From Mangrovicoccus sp. HB161399 (GTDB taxonomy: Bacteria > Pseudomonadota > Alphaproteobacteria > Rhodobacterales > Rhodobacteraceae), in assembly GCF_013184745.1 (NCBI RefSeq), contig NZ_JAATVU010000020.1:1-64000 (forward strand): DNA of 64,000 nt, given 5' to 3'. The position numbers and the translations under genes are program-made. The notes below the pieces were generated by a model. That model was not told the origin of the DNA and searched no databases. It was given only the letters and a program-made list of their open reading frames with translations. Of this stretch, positions 6,114 to 29,143 are shown one piece after another; position 1 is the first letter of the stretch, and each line of letters opens with the position of its first letter.

Positions 6114-7031
6114 TCAGTCCCTGATCAGCGCCTGAAACTCCCGCCATTCCCCGGCACTCATGCCGGAGCCTTCCTGGGACACGTCCTCGCCCTTCAGCAT
6201 GCGGCGCAGGCAGTCCAGACCCTTGCCCGAGAGATGCGCGCCGTTCATCCGGTAGTCCTCGAAGGCGGCATAGGCGGCGGGCACCCAGTCCTTGACGATC
6301 TCGCAGATGATGTCCGCGTAGACGCGGATCTCGTATTGCGCATGGGCGTCCGCGCGCAGGCGCAGGAAGTGGAACAGGTTGTGGAGATCCACCTTCCAGT
6401 ACCACTGGGTGTAGATGTTCGCGGGCAGGTTCATCCGCGCCAGCTCGCGCGCCAGCCCCTGCTGGCCGTCCTGGCTCAGCATCGCCTCGTAGCTGTCGTA
6501 GGACCGCATCGCGTCATGGCGCAGGGTCTCCAGCACGCGCTGCGCCTCCTCGCCCTCAAGAACCTGGCCGCGGCCCTGGTTGTTGGTGGTCGACTGCGCT
6601 GCGAGATGATCGGGCGCCGGGATGTAGAACTCCCGGTCGAGGATCGAGTAGCGGGCGGAGTATTCGTTGACGTTGGCAGTGCGGTGGCGGATCCACTGGC
6701 GGGCGACGAAGACCGGCAGCTTGACGTGCAGCTTCAGCTCGCACATCTCGAACGGGGTCGAGTGCCAGTGCCGCATCAGGTAGCGGATGAGACCCGCATC
6801 GTCGCGCGCCTTCTTGGTGCCTGCGCCGTAGCTGACCCGGGCGGCCTGCACGATCGCGCTGTCGTCTCCCATGTAGTCGACGACCCGCACGAAGCCATGG
6901 TCCAGCACCGGATGGATGTGGTAGAGCCGGTCCTCCATCGCGGGGACGGTGGCACGCAGCGTCTGGCGCGGGGTCGCGCGGCTTTCGGCGATGGCTTCCG
7001 AAATCGGATCGGTCACGGCATGGTCCTTCAT
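6114..7031 (-). CDS. thyX: FAD-dependent thymidylate synthase
   Basis: A 305-residue flavin-dependent thymidylate synthase. It makes dTMP from dUMP using methylene-tetrahydrofolate, FAD and NADPH. The diagnostic ThyX motif RHR-x7-S begins at residue 115 ([15 protein letters not shown]). An N-terminal extension of about 35 residues precedes the catalytic core, as in other alphaproteobacterial forms. It supplies the essential dTMP route and is chemically distinct from ThyA. The gene is monocistronic and its start faces a divergent glyoxalase. A possible -10 element, TATAGT, lies on the minus strand at 7075-7080. Confidence 0.96.
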
Positions 7032-21434: not shown

Positions 21435-21512
21435 ATGCCGGCGGAAATGCGGCGGCCGCGGCGCGCGAGACTCCTTTTCAACCGGCCCCGGGCAGCCTAT
21501 ATCCCGCTTCCC

Positions 21513-21986
21513 ATGGCAAAACCGAAATCAGACCCGAACTACAAGGTGATCGCGGAGAACCGCCGCGCGCGCTACGACTATGCGATCGAGGACGACATCG
21601 AGGTCGGCATCATGCTGCTCGGCTCCGAGGTCAAGTCGCTGCGCCAGGGCGGGTCGAACATCGCCGACAGCTATGCCAATGTCGAGGACGGCGAGCTGTG
21701 GCTGATCAACGGCTACATCGCCCCCTACGAGCAGGCCAAGACCTGGGGCCACGAGGAGCGCCGCAAGCGCAAGCTGCTGGTCTCCAAGCGCGAGCTGGCG
21801 CGGCTCTGGTCGGCGACCCAGCGCGAAGGCATGACGCTGGTGCCCCTCGTGATGTATTTCAACCACAAGGGCATCGTGAAGATGAAGATCGGCATCGCCA
21901 AGGGCAAGAAGACCCAGGACAAGCGCGCCACCGAGGCCAAGCGCGACTGGGACCGCCAGAAGCAGCGGCTGCTGCGCCACGGCTAG
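21513..21986 (+). CDS. smpB: SsrA-binding protein SmpB
   Basis: A 157-residue OB-fold protein that binds tmRNA and directs trans-translation of stalled ribosomes. [15 protein letters not shown], the [10 protein letters not shown] core and the basic C-terminal tail ([19 protein letters not shown]) that acts in the A site are all present. The ATG at 21513 gives the canonical start; the frame extends upstream through the repeat region without support. tmRNA itself is not seen in the window. Confidence 0.97.
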
Positions 21987-22187
21987 GCCCCGACGCGCGG
22001 GACCGGCCGGTGCGGCACGGCAGACCGGTCCGGCCGGAAAAATGCCCGCAAGTTCGGCGCTCTGCCCGGGAATGGCCGCCGTGCCGCAGGATAGCGGTCC
22101 GTTTCTGCGATGCAGCGACTCCGGGGCCTTGTGCGCGGCGGGCCATGCCGGTACCCCTTTGCGAGAGGCGGAGTGTGGAAGGCGGAC

Positions 22188-23039
22188 ATGGCTGAGAGCG
22201 ACCCCAAGACCCTGGTGACCACGGACTGGCTGGAGGACCATCTGCGCGATCCGGATCTGAGGATTCTGGACGCTTCCTGGTACCTGCCCGGCGACGAGCG
22301 CAACGGCCGCGCCGAATACGAGAAGGCGCATATTCCCGGGGCGCGGTTCTTCGACATCGACGAGGTCTCCGACCTGCGTTCGGAGATGCCGCACATGGCG
22401 CCGCCGATCGAGAAATTCATGTCGCGGATGCGCAAGATGGGCGTCGGCGACGGGCATCAGATCGTGGTCTATGACGGCTCCGGCCTGTTCTCGGCGGCCC
22501 GCGTCTGGTGGCTGTTCCGGCTGATGGGCAAGTCCGACATCGCGGTGCTGGACGGCGGCTTCCCGAAATGGCTGGCAGAGGGCCGCGAGGTTGAGGACCT
22601 GCCGCCGATCGTGCGCGACCGCCACATGACCGTCAGCCGCCAGAACCACCTGATCAAGGACGTGACCCAGGTGGCCGCGGCCTCCAAGCTCGGCGATTAC
22701 GAGATCGTCGATGCCCGCGCGCCCGCGCGGTTCGAGGGCAAGGAGCCCGAGCCCAGGCCCGGCCTGCGCTCCGGGCACATCCCGAATTCGAAGAACCTGC
22801 ACTACCGCCTCGTCCTCAACGAGGACGGCACCATGAAGGACCCGGCCGCGCTGCGCGCCGCCTTCGAGGCGGCCGGGGTGGACCTGTCGAAGCCCGCGAT
22901 CACCACCTGCGGCTCGGGCGTCACCGCCGCGATCCTCAGCCTGGCGATGGAACGGATGGGCAAGACCGACCATGCGCTCTATGACGGTTCCTGGGCCGAA
23001 TGGGGCATGTATGACGGGCTCGCCGCGGCCACCGGCTGA
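22188..23039 (+). CDS. sseA: 3-mercaptopyruvate sulfurtransferase
   Basis: A 283-residue two-domain rhodanese. The catalytic loop CGSGVTA in the C-terminal domain is the mercaptopyruvate-type active site (CGSGV), unlike the CRKGVT loop of thiosulfate sulfurtransferases. The N-terminal rhodanese domain is inactive but structural. It transfers sulfur from 3-mercaptopyruvate to thiol acceptors. ATG at 22188 is used; a GTG five codons earlier is also possible. A hairpin after the gene separates it from the aminotransferase-like gene. Confidence 0.94.
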   Translation: MAESDPKTLVTTDWLEDHLRDPDLRILDASWYLPGDERNGRAEYEKAHIPGARFFDIDEVSDLRSEMPHMAPPIEKFMSRMRKMGVGDGHQIVVYDGSGLFSAARVWWLFRLMGKSDIAVLDGGFPKWLAEGREVEDLPPIVRDRHMTVSRQNHLIKDVTQVAAASKLGDYEIVDARAPARFEGKEPEPRPGLRSGHIPNSKNLHYRLVLNEDGTMKDPAALRAAFEAAGVDLSKPAITTCGSGVTAAILSLAMERMGKTDHALYDGSWAEWGMYDGLAAATG

Positions 23040-23079
23040 TCCGGCTGTCCGGGCAAAATCCTTAGACTTCTAGGCATCG

Positions 23080-23099
23080 GGGCGGGGCTACACCCGCCC
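23080..23099 (+). terminator. hairpin after sseA
   Basis: GGGCGGG / CCCGCCC with a six-base loop, followed by TTAA, lies 41 bases beyond the sseA stop. It has no T run beyond two bases, so termination would be weak. Confidence 0.35.
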
Positions 23100-23155
23100 T
23101 TAACGCCCGCCCGCCAGATTGCGGCCGTATTGTGGCAGTAAGCGGTTGGTCTTGA

Positions 23156-24550
23156 ATGGGCAGGTTGCTGGGGACCTGGAACGGTCCCTACAGGCATTTG
23201 GACGATCCCGTGCGGATCGCCTTCGACGGCGGGTTCCGCAAGGACGCGCTCGACCTGTCCGGCGCCCATGTCCTGACGGAGGCCCGCCAGCTGCGCGGCT
23301 TCGATTCCGTGGCCGAGATGCGGCGGCGGCTTGCCCGGCGGGACGGCTTCCTGCGCCGGGCTGACGACCCTCTGGGCGACGGGGCCTTCCATGTCGCGCT
23401 CCATGACTACCTGATGACAGACAACCTGCTGGAAACGCCGCGCAGCGCAACCGCGACCACAGCGGGCGGGCGCGGCGCGATCGGCCTTGCCCTGGAGATG
23501 CTCCGCCGCCTGCATCCCGAGACCACGATCTGGCTGCCGGATCAGGGACGCCGCTGGCAGGCCGACATGGTGCGCCGGGCGGAGCTGAACCTGCGCTTCT
23601 ACCCCTATTCAGACGGCAGCACGCTGCTGCGCGAGCGGATGCTGCAGGTGCTGGAGGCGGCCGCGCCGGGCGACGTGCTGCTGCTGCAGGCCTGCGGCCA
23701 CGACCCGACCGGCCTCGACCTGACGGAGGAGCTCTGGGCCGCGCTGACGGCGCTGTGCATCGAAACCGGAACGGTGCCGCTGATCGACCTCGCCTATGCG
23801 GGCCTCGCCGCCGGGCCGGAAAAGGACGTGGACGGGCTGCAGGGCATGCTGATGGCGGTGCCCGAGGCCTTCCTGGCGGTCAGCTGCTCCTGGAGCTTCG
23901 CGCTGCATGGCGACCGGACGGGGATGCTGCTGGTCCAGGCGGAGACGCCCTCCGAGGCGGAGGAGGCGCAGGCGTTGATGGCCGAGCTGAATGCCGCCGC
24001 GATCGGCGCCCCGCCGCGGGGCGGCGAGCTGATCGTGACCGACCTGCTCTTCAGCATCGAGCTGCGCGCCGGCTGGGAGGCCGAGGCAAGGAAGCTGCGG
24101 ATGTCGCTGGGAGAGACCCGGGCAAGGCTTGCCGACGCGCTGGCCGGTGCGACCGGCGAGGACCGCTGGGGCGCGCTGGCCACCGGCAGGGGGCTCCATG
24201 CCCAGCTCCCCCTGGCCGGTCCGCGGCGGCTGCGGATGTGGACCGGCCACGGGATCATGATCGCGGAGGACGGGAGGATCAATCTCTCGGGACTGGACGC
24301 GGCAGCCATAGACCGGATCGCGGCCGCGGTCGCCGACTGCCTCGCCGCCGCGGAAGAGGAGCTGGAAAGCGGCGGGGAAACAGGGATCCCGGAGCTCGAC
24401 GCCTTGCTCGTTGAGGAGCCCTTGCCGGAAGACGAAGCTGCACCGGAGAGCGGGGCCGATGGCGCGCCCGAACCGGAGGCAAAGCGCGGCTTCCGCCTCC
24501 GGCCGCGATGGCTGCCCGGATTCCGCGGCGGCCGCAAGAAGAGCGCCTGA
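23156..24550 (+). CDS. class I aminotransferase homologue lacking PLP lysine
   Basis: A 464-residue protein related to the AspC/TyrB (subgroup Ia) aminotransferases. Landmarks align well: ATTAGGRGAIG (GGSGAL region), ACGHDPTGLDLT (CCHNPTG), LIDLAYAG (DxAY, D211/Y214), SCSWSFALHGDRTG (SKNFGLYxERxG) and DGRINLSG (R374, substrate-carboxylate Arg). However, the Schiff-base lysine position is Trp246, the Asn of HNPTG is Asp183, and the equivalents of AspC Tyr70 and Trp140 are Pro72 and Arg132. It should not perform transamination. A C-terminal extension of about 65 residues is acidic and then basic. The frame is intact with normal codon use, suggesting a retained pseudoenzyme. Confidence 0.85.
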   Translation: MGRLLGTWNGPYRHLDDPVRIAFDGGFRKDALDLSGAHVLTEARQLRGFDSVAEMRRRLARRDGFLRRADDPLGDGAFHVALHDYLMTDNLLETPRSATATTAGGRGAIGLALEMLRRLHPETTIWLPDQGRRWQADMVRRAELNLRFYPYSDGSTLLRERMLQVLEAAAPGDVLLLQACGHDPTGLDLTEELWAALTALCIETGTVPLIDLAYAGLAAGPEKDVDGLQGMLMAVPEAFLAVSCSWSFALHGDRTGMLLVQAETPSEAEEAQALMAELNAAAIGAPPRGGELIVTDLLFSIELRAGWEAEARKLRMSLGETRARLADALAGATGEDRWGALATGRGLHAQLPLAGPRRLRMWTGHGIMIAEDGRINLSGLDAAAIDRIAAAVADCLAAAEEELESGGETGIPELDALLVEEPLPEDEAAPESGADGAPEPEAKRGFRLRPRWLPGFRGGRKKSA

Positions 24551-26905
24551 CGCGAAACCGCCGGACCGGTGAAATTGGCAGGACCCGCCGGCGGAGGTCG
24601 CCTGCGGGGGCGAGGCGCCCGGAGCAGCCCCACTCGGACCCGGATGGGACGCCGCTGGCGTCCACCGGAAGACAAGCGGCATGTGCAATCACCGGCATGG
24701 CGCCCAGCCCAGAGCCACTGCGATGAGCCGGGATCACGCTTGGCACGGGAAGACCTGTCCGGCCGACCCATGGACCTTTCTGCACGCCTGCCCGCACGGG
24801 CAATCGATATGCAGGGCGCGGCGACGTTGCAGATGATGGTGGCGTCCGCGGCCGTGGAGCAGCTCATGATATGTCCCGCGCTGGCTGTCTGGCTGCGCCG
24901 GCCGGACCCGCTGCGCGGCAGGCAGGACGGCGCGGCTCGCTGGCCAGCGCAAAGGGGTCGGGCGCGCCGGACCGTCCGGTCCCGGCCTGCGCCATCGGGA
25001 TCGCTCCGGCTGGCCGACGGACCGCCGCCACACCGGAGAGCTAGGGCAGGACGGCCGGGGCGCGAAGGGCGCTCCGGACGCAGGCAGCGTCGCCGTGCCG
25101 TCCGCGCACGCAGCCAGGCTTGCGCCCCGCAGCCTTGGCCGCTGCCGAGCCGGGATAGCCTTGCGGGCCGACACATCCTCCCCCGCCGCGTCCCTGAGTA
25201 CGGCCAGATTCGGGCGCATCCGGTCGTCCGCCAGCAGCCGGGCCCTTGCCGTGCCGCGGTCCGGCCGGGCGAAGGCGGCAAGGGCCGGGAAGCGATCCAA
25301 GGGTTCCCTCTTCCGGCCGCCACGGTGGCGGTTCCCGCCGGCATATGCCGGGGCATTGCGCAGAATATGCAGTGGCGCATGGCCACCACCGGTCCCGGAC
25401 CAAGGCCCGCTGCAGCGCTGCAAAGTCGCGGAGAGCATGCGCGCCGCCGGCCTGATGCCCTCGCGGGCGGCGGACGTCGCCAGTTTGCACGCCGGACCGC
25501 GGCTGCGGAGATCGCGCAGGAGGGAACTGGGACCGAGGTGCCAGTGGCGCCGCGAAGGTTCTGCAGGGGCCCAGCTTCGGAAGCGCCGACGGCCATGCCC
25601 GGCACCCCGCGCCAACTATTCCTGTCAGCGCCCGCCACCAGCGCAGCGGCGACGCTCGCGCTCCGGCTGCTCCGGCACAGCTCGATATGGGCGGCGCCGA
25701 TCCGTGGCCGAATCCTCCGCCTTCGGTCAACCGCGCCGGTGCACCCGCCATGAGCCATTCTTCCGGGCCGACGGCGGAGGATGGCCCGGTTCCCGCACAG
25801 GCAGCTGGCCCGGATCTCCGGGATCACGGTCCCGCCCATGGCCCGGACCGGGCCACCGCGCGCGCCGCGAAGCCATGAGCTCAGGCCTCGCGGATCCCCG
25901 CCGCGGGAGGCCGCCTGCCTTGCCGATCCCGTGGCGGCCGCAGACGCATGCCCTGCGGCGCGCCGCGGCCCGGGGGCGGACTGGCCCGGACGCAGGCGCG
26001 GGATGCGGCGCCGAGCGCAGCCTGTCCGGGCCTGCCGGTCCCTGCCGCAGCCGCCGTTCCGCCTCAACCGGCACCGGTGCCTCGCCGCCGATCCGCCGGA
26101 CCAGCCGGACCAGCCGGACCAGCCGGACCAGCCGGACCAGCCGGACCAGCCGGGAAAGGCCGGAGTCCGTCGGGCGCCCAGCGGCAAGGCGTCGGCCGCA
26201 TGGGGCGGCCACCCCGCCCGGCGGGCCGCCGTCGCGCCGTCTCTGCGAGCGCTCGCAGCGCCGTAATGAAGCTAGAGACGGGGCGCCGTCCCGGGGTCAG
26301 GCTGGCCCAGCGATCCGCCCCAGACGCCAGGCCCGGTGACAGCCGCCAGCTCTCCAGGACCCGGCACTTCGCGCGAGTGGCAGAGAACCGCTGGAAGGCG
26401 CGCAGGCTTCGCGGCAGCAGGGCTCGTTCACGGTGCTTTTTCCGCGCCCATGCCGAAACATCCGGGAGGATGCGCGGTCAGGCGCATGGCAGGTTCCCCC
26501 AACCGTTCCGGGCGGCGAGGATCAGGGGACACAGAATCGATTCCGGACGCCAGGTCCTGCGGACAAGATGCCCTTGCCGACAGTGGGGAGCGTCGGCGCC
26601 CTTCGGCGGTCCGCATGGCTGGGAAAGGGGCAACGGCTGTCCTTGCTCCCGAAGACCGCCAGACGCACCGCTTGCCGGTGGCAACGTCCGGAACGCCCCC
26701 CTCCCCGCACGTTCGGGCGGCCCGCTCTTAAGGCATGGCATCTGGCTGAAGGCGGGAAAGGCGCCGCCGCCGCGAGGCGGCCGCAGGATGGCGGCAGAGA
26801 CCGCGCGCGCCTCCGGCAAATCGCGCGCTGCCCTTCGGGACCGGCCTCCGCCGGAGGCCGCCGCTGCGGGCGGCGCCGTTTCCGGCCCCGCCCGCAGAGC
26901 CGCGG
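24551..26905. other. 2.35-kb gene-free GC-rich stretch
   Basis: No believable gene is seen in 2355 bases. Open frames run through on all strands, but their products are low-complexity Arg/Pro/Ala/Gly mixtures without hydrophobic cores, domains or plausible ribosome-binding sites, and three or more overlap at most positions. No tRNA, rRNA or transposon ends are found. It includes the 9-bp tandem repeat at 26096-26149 and a GGCCTCC/GGAGGCC hairpin (26843-26859) downstream of the PBP gene. It could be decayed coding sequence, an ncRNA locus or a structural spacer. Confidence 0.6.
26096..26149. repeat. six-copy 9-bp tandem repeat
   Basis: CCGGACCAG is repeated six times perfectly in head-to-tail array, with a degenerate start of a seventh copy. 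It lies in the gene-free stretch. Every frame yields a tripeptide repeat (for example GPA or PDQ), but no surrounding gene supports translation. Confidence 0.95.
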
Positions 26906-29143
26906 TCAGTTCCGGCCGAACAGGCCGCGCACGTCGCGCATGATGCGCTCGGCGATGCCCTGGGCCTTCTCCGGCAGGTCGGAAAGGTCGGGCACCGGAA
27001 CCTTCAGGCCCGGCTGCCCGCTGCCCTGCCCCTGCGTGCTGCGCGGGCCGTCATTGGAGACCATGCGCTCGGACGGCTGGTCGCTCGGCGTGATCATCGG
27101 CAGCGGCGTCACCGGACGGCCGTCGTTGATCCGCACCATGACCTCGTGCCAGATCTCGGCCGGGAGCCCGCCCCCGGTCACCCCGGTCAGCGGCGTGTTG
27201 TCGTCATAGCCCATCCAGACGCCGACCACGAAATCGCCGGTGAAGCCCATGAACCAGGCATCCCGCGCCGAGGTCGTGGTGCCGGTCTTGCCCGCTGCCG
27301 GACGGCCGTCGAGCTTGGCCCGGTGGCCGGTGCCGTGCTCGATCACCTGGTTCATCATGTAGACCAGCTGCCGCGACGCATCGCGCGAGATCACCCGCTC
27401 GCCGATGCCGCCCTCCTTCTGCATGACCGGCGCGCTCTCGCCGCGCACCGCCAGCGAGGTCAGCCCGTAGGGCGCCACCGACTGGCCGCCGTTGAGGATG
27501 CCGGCATAGGCGCCGGTCAGCTCCAGCAGCGAGGCCTCGGACACGCCGAGCGCCAGGGACGGCCCGTCGAACAGCGTCGAATCGATGCCGAAGTCGGTCG
27601 CCACGCGGATCACGTTCTTGCGCCCCACCGCTTCGGAGACCTTCACCGCCGGGATGTTGAGGCTGTCCTCCAGCGCCGTGGTGAGACTGACCCAGCCATG
27701 GAAGTTGCGCGAATAGTTCTGCGGCGTCCACGGTCCCGAGCCCGGCACGTTGATCGTCAGCGGCGCGTCCTCGACCATGTCGTTGTAGCTGTAGCCCAGA
27801 TCCAGCGCGGTGGCGTAGACGAAAGGCTTGAAGGCCGAGCCGGTCTGGCGCTTGGCCTGAACCGCGCGGTTGAACCCGCCCGGCACGTCGGCATCGCGGC
27901 CGCCGACCATGGCGCGCACCGCACCGTCGGCGCCCATCACCACGATCGCCGCCTCGGCCTCGGACCCGGCCTTCACCTTGGTGCGGAACACCTCGGCCAG
28001 CGCGGACTCGGCCTGCTGCTGCATCTTCATGTCGAGCGTGGTGCGGATCGTCACGTCCTCGGTGGTGCCCTTGCCGTAGTATTCCGGCACGACGCCCATC
28101 ACCCAGTCGGCGAAATAGCCGCCCGTCCGGTTGGCCGCTGCGGCCGAAAGCGTGGCGGGATGCGCGCGGGCATCCTCGGCCTCCTCGCGGGAGAGATAGC
28201 CCTGCTCCTCCATCAGGCCGACGATCACGTTGGCGCGCTCCTGGCTGCGGGCGAGGTTGGCGGTCGGCGCGAAGCGGCTCGGCGCCTTCAGCAGACCGGC
28301 CAGCATCGCCGCCTCGGCCGGGTCGACCTCGCTGGCGGGCTTGCCGAAATAGAGCTGGCTGGCGGCCTCGAAGCCGCGCGTGCCCGCGCCCAGATAGGCC
28401 CGGTTCATGTAGATCGTCAGGATCTCGTCCTTGGAGTATTTCACTTCCATCGCCAGCGCGTAGATCGCCTCGCGCGCCTTGCGCGCCAGCGAGCTTTCGC
28501 GGCACTCGGCCTCGTACTGCGCCTCGGTCTGGCCCGAGGTCGGATCGTAGGCACGCCCGACGCAGAGCAGCTTGGCGGTCTGCTGGGTGATGGTAGAGCC
28601 GCCGTTGCCCGAGAGCGGCGAGCGCCCCTCGGACATGTTGATCCGCATCGCGCCGATGATGCCGATCGGATCGACCCCGGGATGCATGTAGAAGCGGCGG
28701 TCCTCGGTGGCGACGATCGCGTGCTTCAGATCCGGCGACACCGAGTCGGCATGGACCCCGCCGCCATACTGGTCTCCGCGCCAGGCGAAGGTCTCGCCCT
28801 CGCGGTCGAGCAGCGTGACGGACCCTCGCACCCGGCCGTCCATCAGCTGCGAGACCGGCGGAAGGGTGGAATAGACCACGGCCACCCAGCCCGCGAGAAT
28901 CAGACCCGCGAACACCGCCAGGCGCCAGCCGACGCCCCAGATGGCGCCGAAGACGCCCCGCACCAGCCGCACCGGCCAGGGCGCGCGCCTGCGGCCGCCG
29001 CCGCCTCCGCTGCTGCGCTTGCGGGCCGGAGCCGCCTTCTTCGGACCGGGTTTCTTCTGCGCTGCTCCGGGCTTGGCCCGCTTGGCCGCGGGGCGCTCTC
29101 CCGTGGCGCGCACGGGGCGCCGCGGCGTGGTTGGCCTGCTCAT
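26906..29143 (-). CDS. class A penicillin-binding protein (PBP1A family)
   Basis: A 745-residue bifunctional peptidoglycan synthase. A cytoplasmic tail of about 55 residues is rich in Lys/Arg/Pro/Ala, followed by one transmembrane helix (about 68-92). The glycosyltransferase GT51 domain carries the catalytic Glu in ATEDRRFY at about residue 148 and GGSTITQQ. The transpeptidase domain has SxxK as SAFK at about residue 435, SxN as SLN, and KTG at about residue 619. It polymerises and cross-links glycan strands at the periplasmic face. The long basic tail may bind cytoplasmic partners; this is inference. Confidence 0.93.
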   Translation of the reverse strand: MSRPTTPRRPVRATGERPAAKRAKPGAAQKKPGPKKAAPARKRSSGGGGGRRRAPWPVRLVRGVFGAIWGVGWRLAVFAGLILAGWVAVVYSTLPPVSQLMDGRVRGSVTLLDREGETFAWRGDQYGGGVHADSVSPDLKHAIVATEDRRFYMHPGVDPIGIIGAMRINMSEGRSPLSGNGGSTITQQTAKLLCVGRAYDPTSGQTEAQYEAECRESSLARKAREAIYALAMEVKYSKDEILTIYMNRAYLGAGTRGFEAASQLYFGKPASEVDPAEAAMLAGLLKAPSRFAPTANLARSQERANVIVGLMEEQGYLSREEAEDARAHPATLSAAAANRTGGYFADWVMGVVPEYYGKGTTEDVTIRTTLDMKMQQQAESALAEVFRTKVKAGSEAEAAIVVMGADGAVRAMVGGRDADVPGGFNRAVQAKRQTGSAFKPFVYATALDLGYSYNDMVEDAPLTINVPGSGPWTPQNYSRNFHGWVSLTTALEDSLNIPAVKVSEAVGRKNVIRVATDFGIDSTLFDGPSLALGVSEASLLELTGAYAGILNGGQSVAPYGLTSLAVRGESAPVMQKEGGIGERVISRDASRQLVYMMNQVIEHGTGHRAKLDGRPAAGKTGTTTSARDAWFMGFTGDFVVGVWMGYDDNTPLTGVTGGGLPAEIWHEVMVRINDGRPVTPLPMITPSDQPSERMVSNDGPRSTQGQGSGQPGLKVPVPDLSDLPEKAQGIAERIMRDVRGLFGRN

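Follow-up and report, generated by a model that had tools for sequence, protein, structure and literature searches.

A probable pseudo-aminotransferase in the sseA-linked slot of Mangrovicoccus

Mangrovicoccus genomes carry, directly after sseA, a class I aminotransferase homologue that lacks the PLP lysine and is probably a genus-specific pseudoenzyme, occupying the ancestral sseA-linked slot under purifying selection that is relaxed but real. The name pAT is used here for the product of open reading frame 23156–24550 (+) of the window, by which the whole analysed stretch of 64,000 nucleotides from the 7.2 Mb genome of Mangrovicoccus sp. HB161399 is meant (Table 1). PLP-fold pseudoenzymes are already known; a genus-specific one of the AspC/TyrB lineage, sitting where relatives have their working enzyme and accompanied by a working copy at another locus, appears to be undescribed. 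A keyword search of open-access papers, which is weak evidence of absence, found LCB1 and general reviews and no AspC-lineage pseudoenzyme. pAT amounts to a natural before-and-after experiment, with hundreds of sister genera possessing a working enzyme that, among those sampled, mostly occupies this very slot. It allows the path from enzyme to non-enzyme to be tested by comparing sites that were freed (the lysine itself) with sites that were re-fixed (Asp183 and Arg132), and it lets one ask whether retention reflects a new function or slow loss.

Table 1. Features of the pAT locus (positions are those of the window)
Feature	Position	Strand	Basis or remark
smpB, upstream neighbour	21435..21986	+	
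sseA, 3-mercaptopyruvate sulfurtransferase, conserved upstream neighbour	22110..23039	+	PRK11493, 260 bits against a cut-off of 250
sseA–pAT spacer, candidate leader or promoter	23040..23155	+	69–84% identity in the genus
pAT, pseudo-aminotransferase gene, 464 aa	23156..24550	+	ORF, profile matches, alignments, model
Arg132 codon, Trp140 site	23549..23551	+	Arg in 4/4 orthologues
Asp183 codon, Asn194 site (HNPTG to HDPTG)	23702..23704	+	Asp in 4/4 orthologues
Trp246 codon, site of the PLP Schiff-base lysine (K258 of AspC)	23891..23893	+	Alignments with 31 and 28 catalytic relatives
C-terminal extension, residues 399–464, acidic then basic	24350..24547	+	Lacking in catalytic relatives; mostly low model confidence
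Penicillin-binding protein 1A-type gene, convergent downstream neighbour	26906..29143	-	Selection control

Results and discussion

Family assignment and predicted structure

The reading frame of pAT is intact over its 464 codons, and the full-length homology to AspC/TyrB-type aminotransferases that a preliminary description had claimed was borne out. The Pfam family Aminotran_1_2 (PF00155) was matched at 90.3 bits against a cut-off of 19.7 (residues 60–391), the NCBIfam aromatic/aspartate aminotransferase model PRK09257 (NF006719) matched nearly the full length of the protein, and the closest PDB match was the Paracoccus aromatic aminotransferase 1ay4 (E 2e-50). The PRK09257 match scored 229 bits, below the cut-off of 377. 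Pfam alone would label pAT an aminotransferase, and annotation pipelines would be misled accordingly; despite the Pfam match, it is almost certainly not one.

The AlphaFold2 model of the window protein (mean pLDDT 86.6) displayed the class I fold over residues 4–397 and superimposed on 1ay4 with a Z score of 50.9 and an rmsd of 3.2 Å over 391 residues, while the model of the most divergent orthologue (pLDDT 81.4) reproduced its core elements in unchanged order. Since the alignments supplied to AlphaFold contained many catalytic relatives, the modelled fold derives in part from these, and the retention of the enzyme fold, which is by prediction only, shows compatibility and is not proof. The acidic-then-basic C-terminal extension proposed earlier does exist, and from residue 439 onwards it is predicted to be disordered (pLDDT < 50). 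Its acidic part is found in each of the three copies whose 3' end is complete, the window gene and two orthologues, but the strongly basic end occurs only in the window protein, and the tail differs in length and sequence among orthologues.

Restriction to Mangrovicoccus

The genus set comprised four genomes, namely the window genome, Mangrovicoccus ximenensis T1lg56, Poseidonocella sp. HB161398 and M. algicola HB182678. One copy of pAT lies directly after sseA in each, all four without the lysine, and the three relatives are 70, 60 and 51% identical to the window protein, respectively. When 395 genomes of the family Rhodobacteraceae were scanned, the genus members listed scored 745–806 bits and the next genus 268. 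Mangrovicoccus alone scores as pAT among these genomes, and no other genus out of 394 does, so a spread across Rhodobacterales, the range over which orthologues were to be sought, was rejected within the family: the loss recurs in every genus genome and is confined to one genus. A single-protein query gave no match in a first scan of named genomes; the three named relatives were recovered once the four-sequence alignment served as the query. In a set of 72,556 plasmids, no match to pAT reached 60% identity, and one match covered 80% of the query.

Sequencing error was considered as the cause of the lysine loss and rejected, since three independent assemblies also lack the lysine and differ at many further active-site positions. 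Its absence from all four proteins means that the lysine was most simply lost before their split.

Changes in the active site

The window protein was aligned with 31 catalytic relatives (residue numbers such as K258 follow AspC). The replacement of the Schiff-base lysine K258 by Trp246 was confirmed, the motif SCSWSF standing opposite SCSKNF of 1ay4, as were the previously described changes of the HNPTG asparagine Asn194 to Asp183 and of Trp140, which stacks on the PLP ring, to Arg132. R292 is replaced by A280 and T109 by R106 in addition, so that pAT has neither the Schiff-base lysine nor the cofactor and substrate contacts N194, W140, R292 and T109 of PRK09257. Tyr70 is lost in all four pATs; its counterpart in the window protein, earlier given as Pro72, is Pro72, Arg68 or Ala depending on the alignment. 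The reported retention of D211, Y214, R254 and R374 holds for the window protein, but the site of Tyr214 (Tyr225 of AspC) is Y/H/H/Q across the four orthologues. Asp222, Arg266 and Arg386 are retained in the pATs, the last wherever sequence is present.

Comparison of the orthologues separated sites that became fixed anew from sites that vary. In all four proteins, Asn194 has been switched to Asp, Trp140 has become Arg and Arg292 has become Ala, and the Thr109 site reads R/H/R/R. The K258 site, which is lysine in all 31 and 28 catalytic relatives aligned, is W/R/S/Q: the loss of the lysine is conserved, the tryptophan is not, and Trp246 was rejected as a conserved functional residue. Over the whole alignment, pATs and catalytic relatives share one invariant residue in 42 columns. 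In 69 columns the residue is invariant among the catalytic relatives and variable among pATs, and in 21 the residue invariant among the catalytic relatives is switched to another one common to all available pATs. Loss of the essential catalytic residue is thus conserved among the orthologues, as in a pseudoenzyme. On these counts, switched sites are conserved in 23% of cases against 39% for other pAT sites; as they are no more often conserved than the rest, the pocket has not been singled out by selection.

As pAT has lost the lysine, the stacking Trp, Asn194, Arg292 and Tyr70 together, transamination by it is not credible. An enzyme of altered chemistry, in which another lysine serves or catalysis proceeds without a Schiff base, is very improbable in our estimation. 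The equivalents of D222, R266 and R386 are kept, as such an enzyme might need, and the structure 1aia, AspC K258H, mentions in its title the structural basis for catalytic activity, which, as far as a title goes, suggests that lysine loss alone need not abolish all chemistry. However, the K258 site is free to vary and none of the invariant columns of the pAT alignment holds a new lysine, and the stacking Trp, Tyr70, Arg292 and Asn194 are gone as well.

The sseA-linked slot and the origin of pAT

In the family, sseA and a catalytic aminotransferase were adjacent in 13 of the 13 other loci fetched with long flanks. Among the best 28 non-genus hits of the 395-genome scan, sseA lay within 1.5 kb in 26, and the lysine, Asn194, Trp140, Tyr70, Arg292 and Tyr225 were all present in 28. 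All four Mangrovicoccus genomes encode a lysine-bearing aminotransferase at another locus (88–96% identical among them), which nests among the sseA-linked enzymes of the family in the tree. Most simply, the activity would have been transferred to another locus or duplicated there, which freed the original slot. An ancestral AspC/TyrB-type enzyme at sseA would have become redundant as soon as its activity was supplied by another copy, and this redundant gene may then have been retooled with its slot and reading frame kept. A sister relationship of pAT with the catalytic copy of the genus was not recovered (p-AU 0.014, a mild rejection with long-branch attraction to be expected). As the pAT stem spans 5–8 changes per site and long branches attract, its placement is unreliable, and the origin proposed here rests on synteny and not on the tree.

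Compared with the AspC/TyrB subgroup represented by the Paracoccus denitrificans aromatic aminotransferase (1ay4/1ay5), pAT shares the full-length homology, an almost identical predicted fold, the D222/R266/R386 equivalents and the genomic slot of the family's sseA-linked enzymes. It differs in lacking K258, N194, W140, R292, T109 and Tyr70, in its tail of about 65 residues and in its sub-threshold PRK09257 score.

Some further features of these loci were observed. The true start of sseA in the window is probably near 22188. In three of the 13 family loci, sseA and the aminotransferase seem to be separated by an extra short gene, which by eye resembles an acetyltransferase. On contig C113, M. 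algicola carries a third class I aminotransferase with the lysine (43% identity to the common catalytic copy of the genus), and this search found such a gene in that one of the four genus genomes only.

Selection on pAT

The proposal that pAT is a selected pseudoenzyme and not a decaying gene was addressed by codon models, the kind of dN/dS test suggested earlier. Applied to 344 codons of the window and M. ximenensis copies, which form the closest pair, the pairwise model gave an omega of 0.18 and rejected omega = 1 (2dlnL 93); the corresponding controls were 0.04 for sseA, 0.07 for the penicillin-binding protein and 0.02 for the catalytic aminotransferase. The four-taxon model gave a 2dlnL of 351 against neutrality, and for distant pairs, where saturation makes omega uninterpretable, only the rejection of omega = 1 was counted. 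Third codon positions of pAT change at 1.72 times the mean of first and second positions, while the highest ratio in 900 neutral simulations at three GC equilibria was 1.26. The cores differ at 22–40% of bases between copies, with at most one 6-base gap per pair and no frameshift, and under random substitution alone the chance of both frames staying open is at most 0.002 in distant pairs. GC content by codon position stays gene-like.

Omega, the codon-position pattern and the preservation of the frame demonstrate that the purifying constraint on pAT is real. It is nevertheless several-fold weaker than that on the neighbours, compared with which pAT evolves several times as fast, and within the genus pAT is 51–70% identical compared to 87–96% for the neighbours and the catalytic copy (88–92% for the penicillin-binding protein gene). 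In M. ximenensis, moreover, homology ends at approximately codon 345 (window position ~24180), so that the last part of the conserved core is gone. When the missing 3' end was sought elsewhere in that assembly, which is 84% complete and contiguous at the break, only the catalytic paralogue and chance-level matches were found. The break appears to be a rearrangement breakpoint, and full pAT function has probably been lost in this lineage, unless the break is an assembly fault. The weaker selection and the core loss indicate that pAT is dispensable or changing in M. ximenensis. Beyond the break, around position 6814 of that locus, unrelated sequence including an RraA-like ORF was seen, and the penicillin-binding protein gene of M. 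ximenensis lies on a different contig from pAT.

A disrupted frame or neutral substitutions, the marks of a pseudogene, are accordingly present in the M. ximenensis copy and absent in the other three genomes. The earlier proposal thus stands as far as the rejection of neutrality goes, but has to be softened, as selection is relaxed and one copy in four is truncated. This leaves room for a slowly decaying gene, in which the sseA-linked copy became unconstrained once a second aminotransferase took over the activity and copies are now being lost singly. The relaxed rates, the freely varying lysine and Tyr225 sites, the variable tail and the M. ximenensis truncation are all in line with it, and the last shows decay to be under way in at least one lineage. 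We nonetheless regard this reading as unlikely, and are equally doubtful of its corollary, that the apparent purifying selection is a remnant of an early functional period. The lysine was most simply lost in the ancestor of the genus, yet the divergence that followed has been constrained, up to and including the latest pair. Three of the four frames are intact at divergences where neutral drift almost always produces stops, no indel shifts the frame, and the base composition by codon position is that of a gene.

Possible roles of pAT

If pAT is a maintained pseudoenzyme, it may work as a binding protein without catalysis, a role that we put forward tentatively from the residues lining the former cleft. 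These have re-lined it with positive charge: Trp140 has changed to Arg and Thr109 to Arg or His (Arg in three of four), and Arg266 and Arg386 remain in place, a pattern suggestive of a cleft that binds anions. With the PLP anchor absent, pAT would most likely bind either a small anion, such as a 2-oxo acid, a dicarboxylate or a phosphate compound, or a protein partner such as SseA, and in both cases it would modulate without catalysing a reaction. The regulatory or scaffolding role raised in the preliminary description likewise remains one we infer from sequence.

A different way for pAT to act is as a non-catalytic partner subunit, in the manner of LCB1/SPTLC1, that pairs with the catalytic aminotransferase of the genus and regulates it. 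Class I aminotransferases form dimers whose subunits share their active sites, and the catalytic copy and pAT co-occur in all four genomes, both of which would suit this arrangement. We consider it improbable, however, because the cross-interface residues are lost. Tyr70 and Arg292, the residues that one subunit lends to the active site of its partner, are missing from all four pATs, which would therefore be unable to complete a partner site, and only an inhibitory heterodimer would fit. The N-terminal region of pAT, residues 1–95, also belongs to its stretches of lowest similarity to the catalytic copy (8–17% identity). The precedent within fold type I is LCB1 of serine palmitoyltransferase, which has no PLP lysine and forms a pair with LCB2 (PMC3794620). 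Like pAT, it is a lysine-less homologue of PLP fold type I that is kept beside a catalytic homologue; unlike pAT, it belongs to the alpha-oxoamine synthase branch and is an established heterodimer subunit. Pseudoenzymes in general (reviewed in PMC5106787) resemble pAT in their retained fold, lost catalytic residues and maintenance by selection; pAT is set apart by its restriction to one bacterial genus.

For the binding role, the genomic context offers a candidate pathway. In E. coli, cysteine transamination by AspC supplies 3-mercaptopyruvate to SseA (PMC6401616), and an AspC-type aminotransferase beside sseA is usual in Rhodobacteraceae, which suggests that the original gene served the cysteine/3-mercaptopyruvate route. 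In Mangrovicoccus, by contrast, sseA stands next to a presumably dead copy, and the gene of the working enzyme lies at another locus. The pairing in the family, together with the E. coli route, makes a role near SseA or in sulfur amino acid metabolism the first to consider for pAT. In its most specific and rather speculative form, pAT would be a PLP-free ligand sensor or adaptor that evolved in place, with an arginine-lined pocket, and acts on cysteine/3-mercaptopyruvate metabolism via SseA or the displaced enzyme.

Flanking DNA

The interval from pAT to the penicillin-binding protein gene comprises approximately 2.3 kb of 74% GC DNA (24560–26880); in two relatives it measures only about 350–760 bp. 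No Pfam domains were found in the tested ORFs of this region, which contains a short tandem repeat near 26060–26140 and has 73%-identical partial copies elsewhere in the window genome and in genome G002. It is probably degenerate inserted DNA.

In the spacer upstream of pAT, no Rfam family was matched and no sigma-70 consensus promoter was found. Conserved blocks were observed within 23040–23173, namely TTCTAGGCA and GGCTACAC..CCCTTAA. Codons 1 to 6 of pAT (ATGGGCAGGTTGCTGGG) are nearly invariant across the genus, synonymous positions included.
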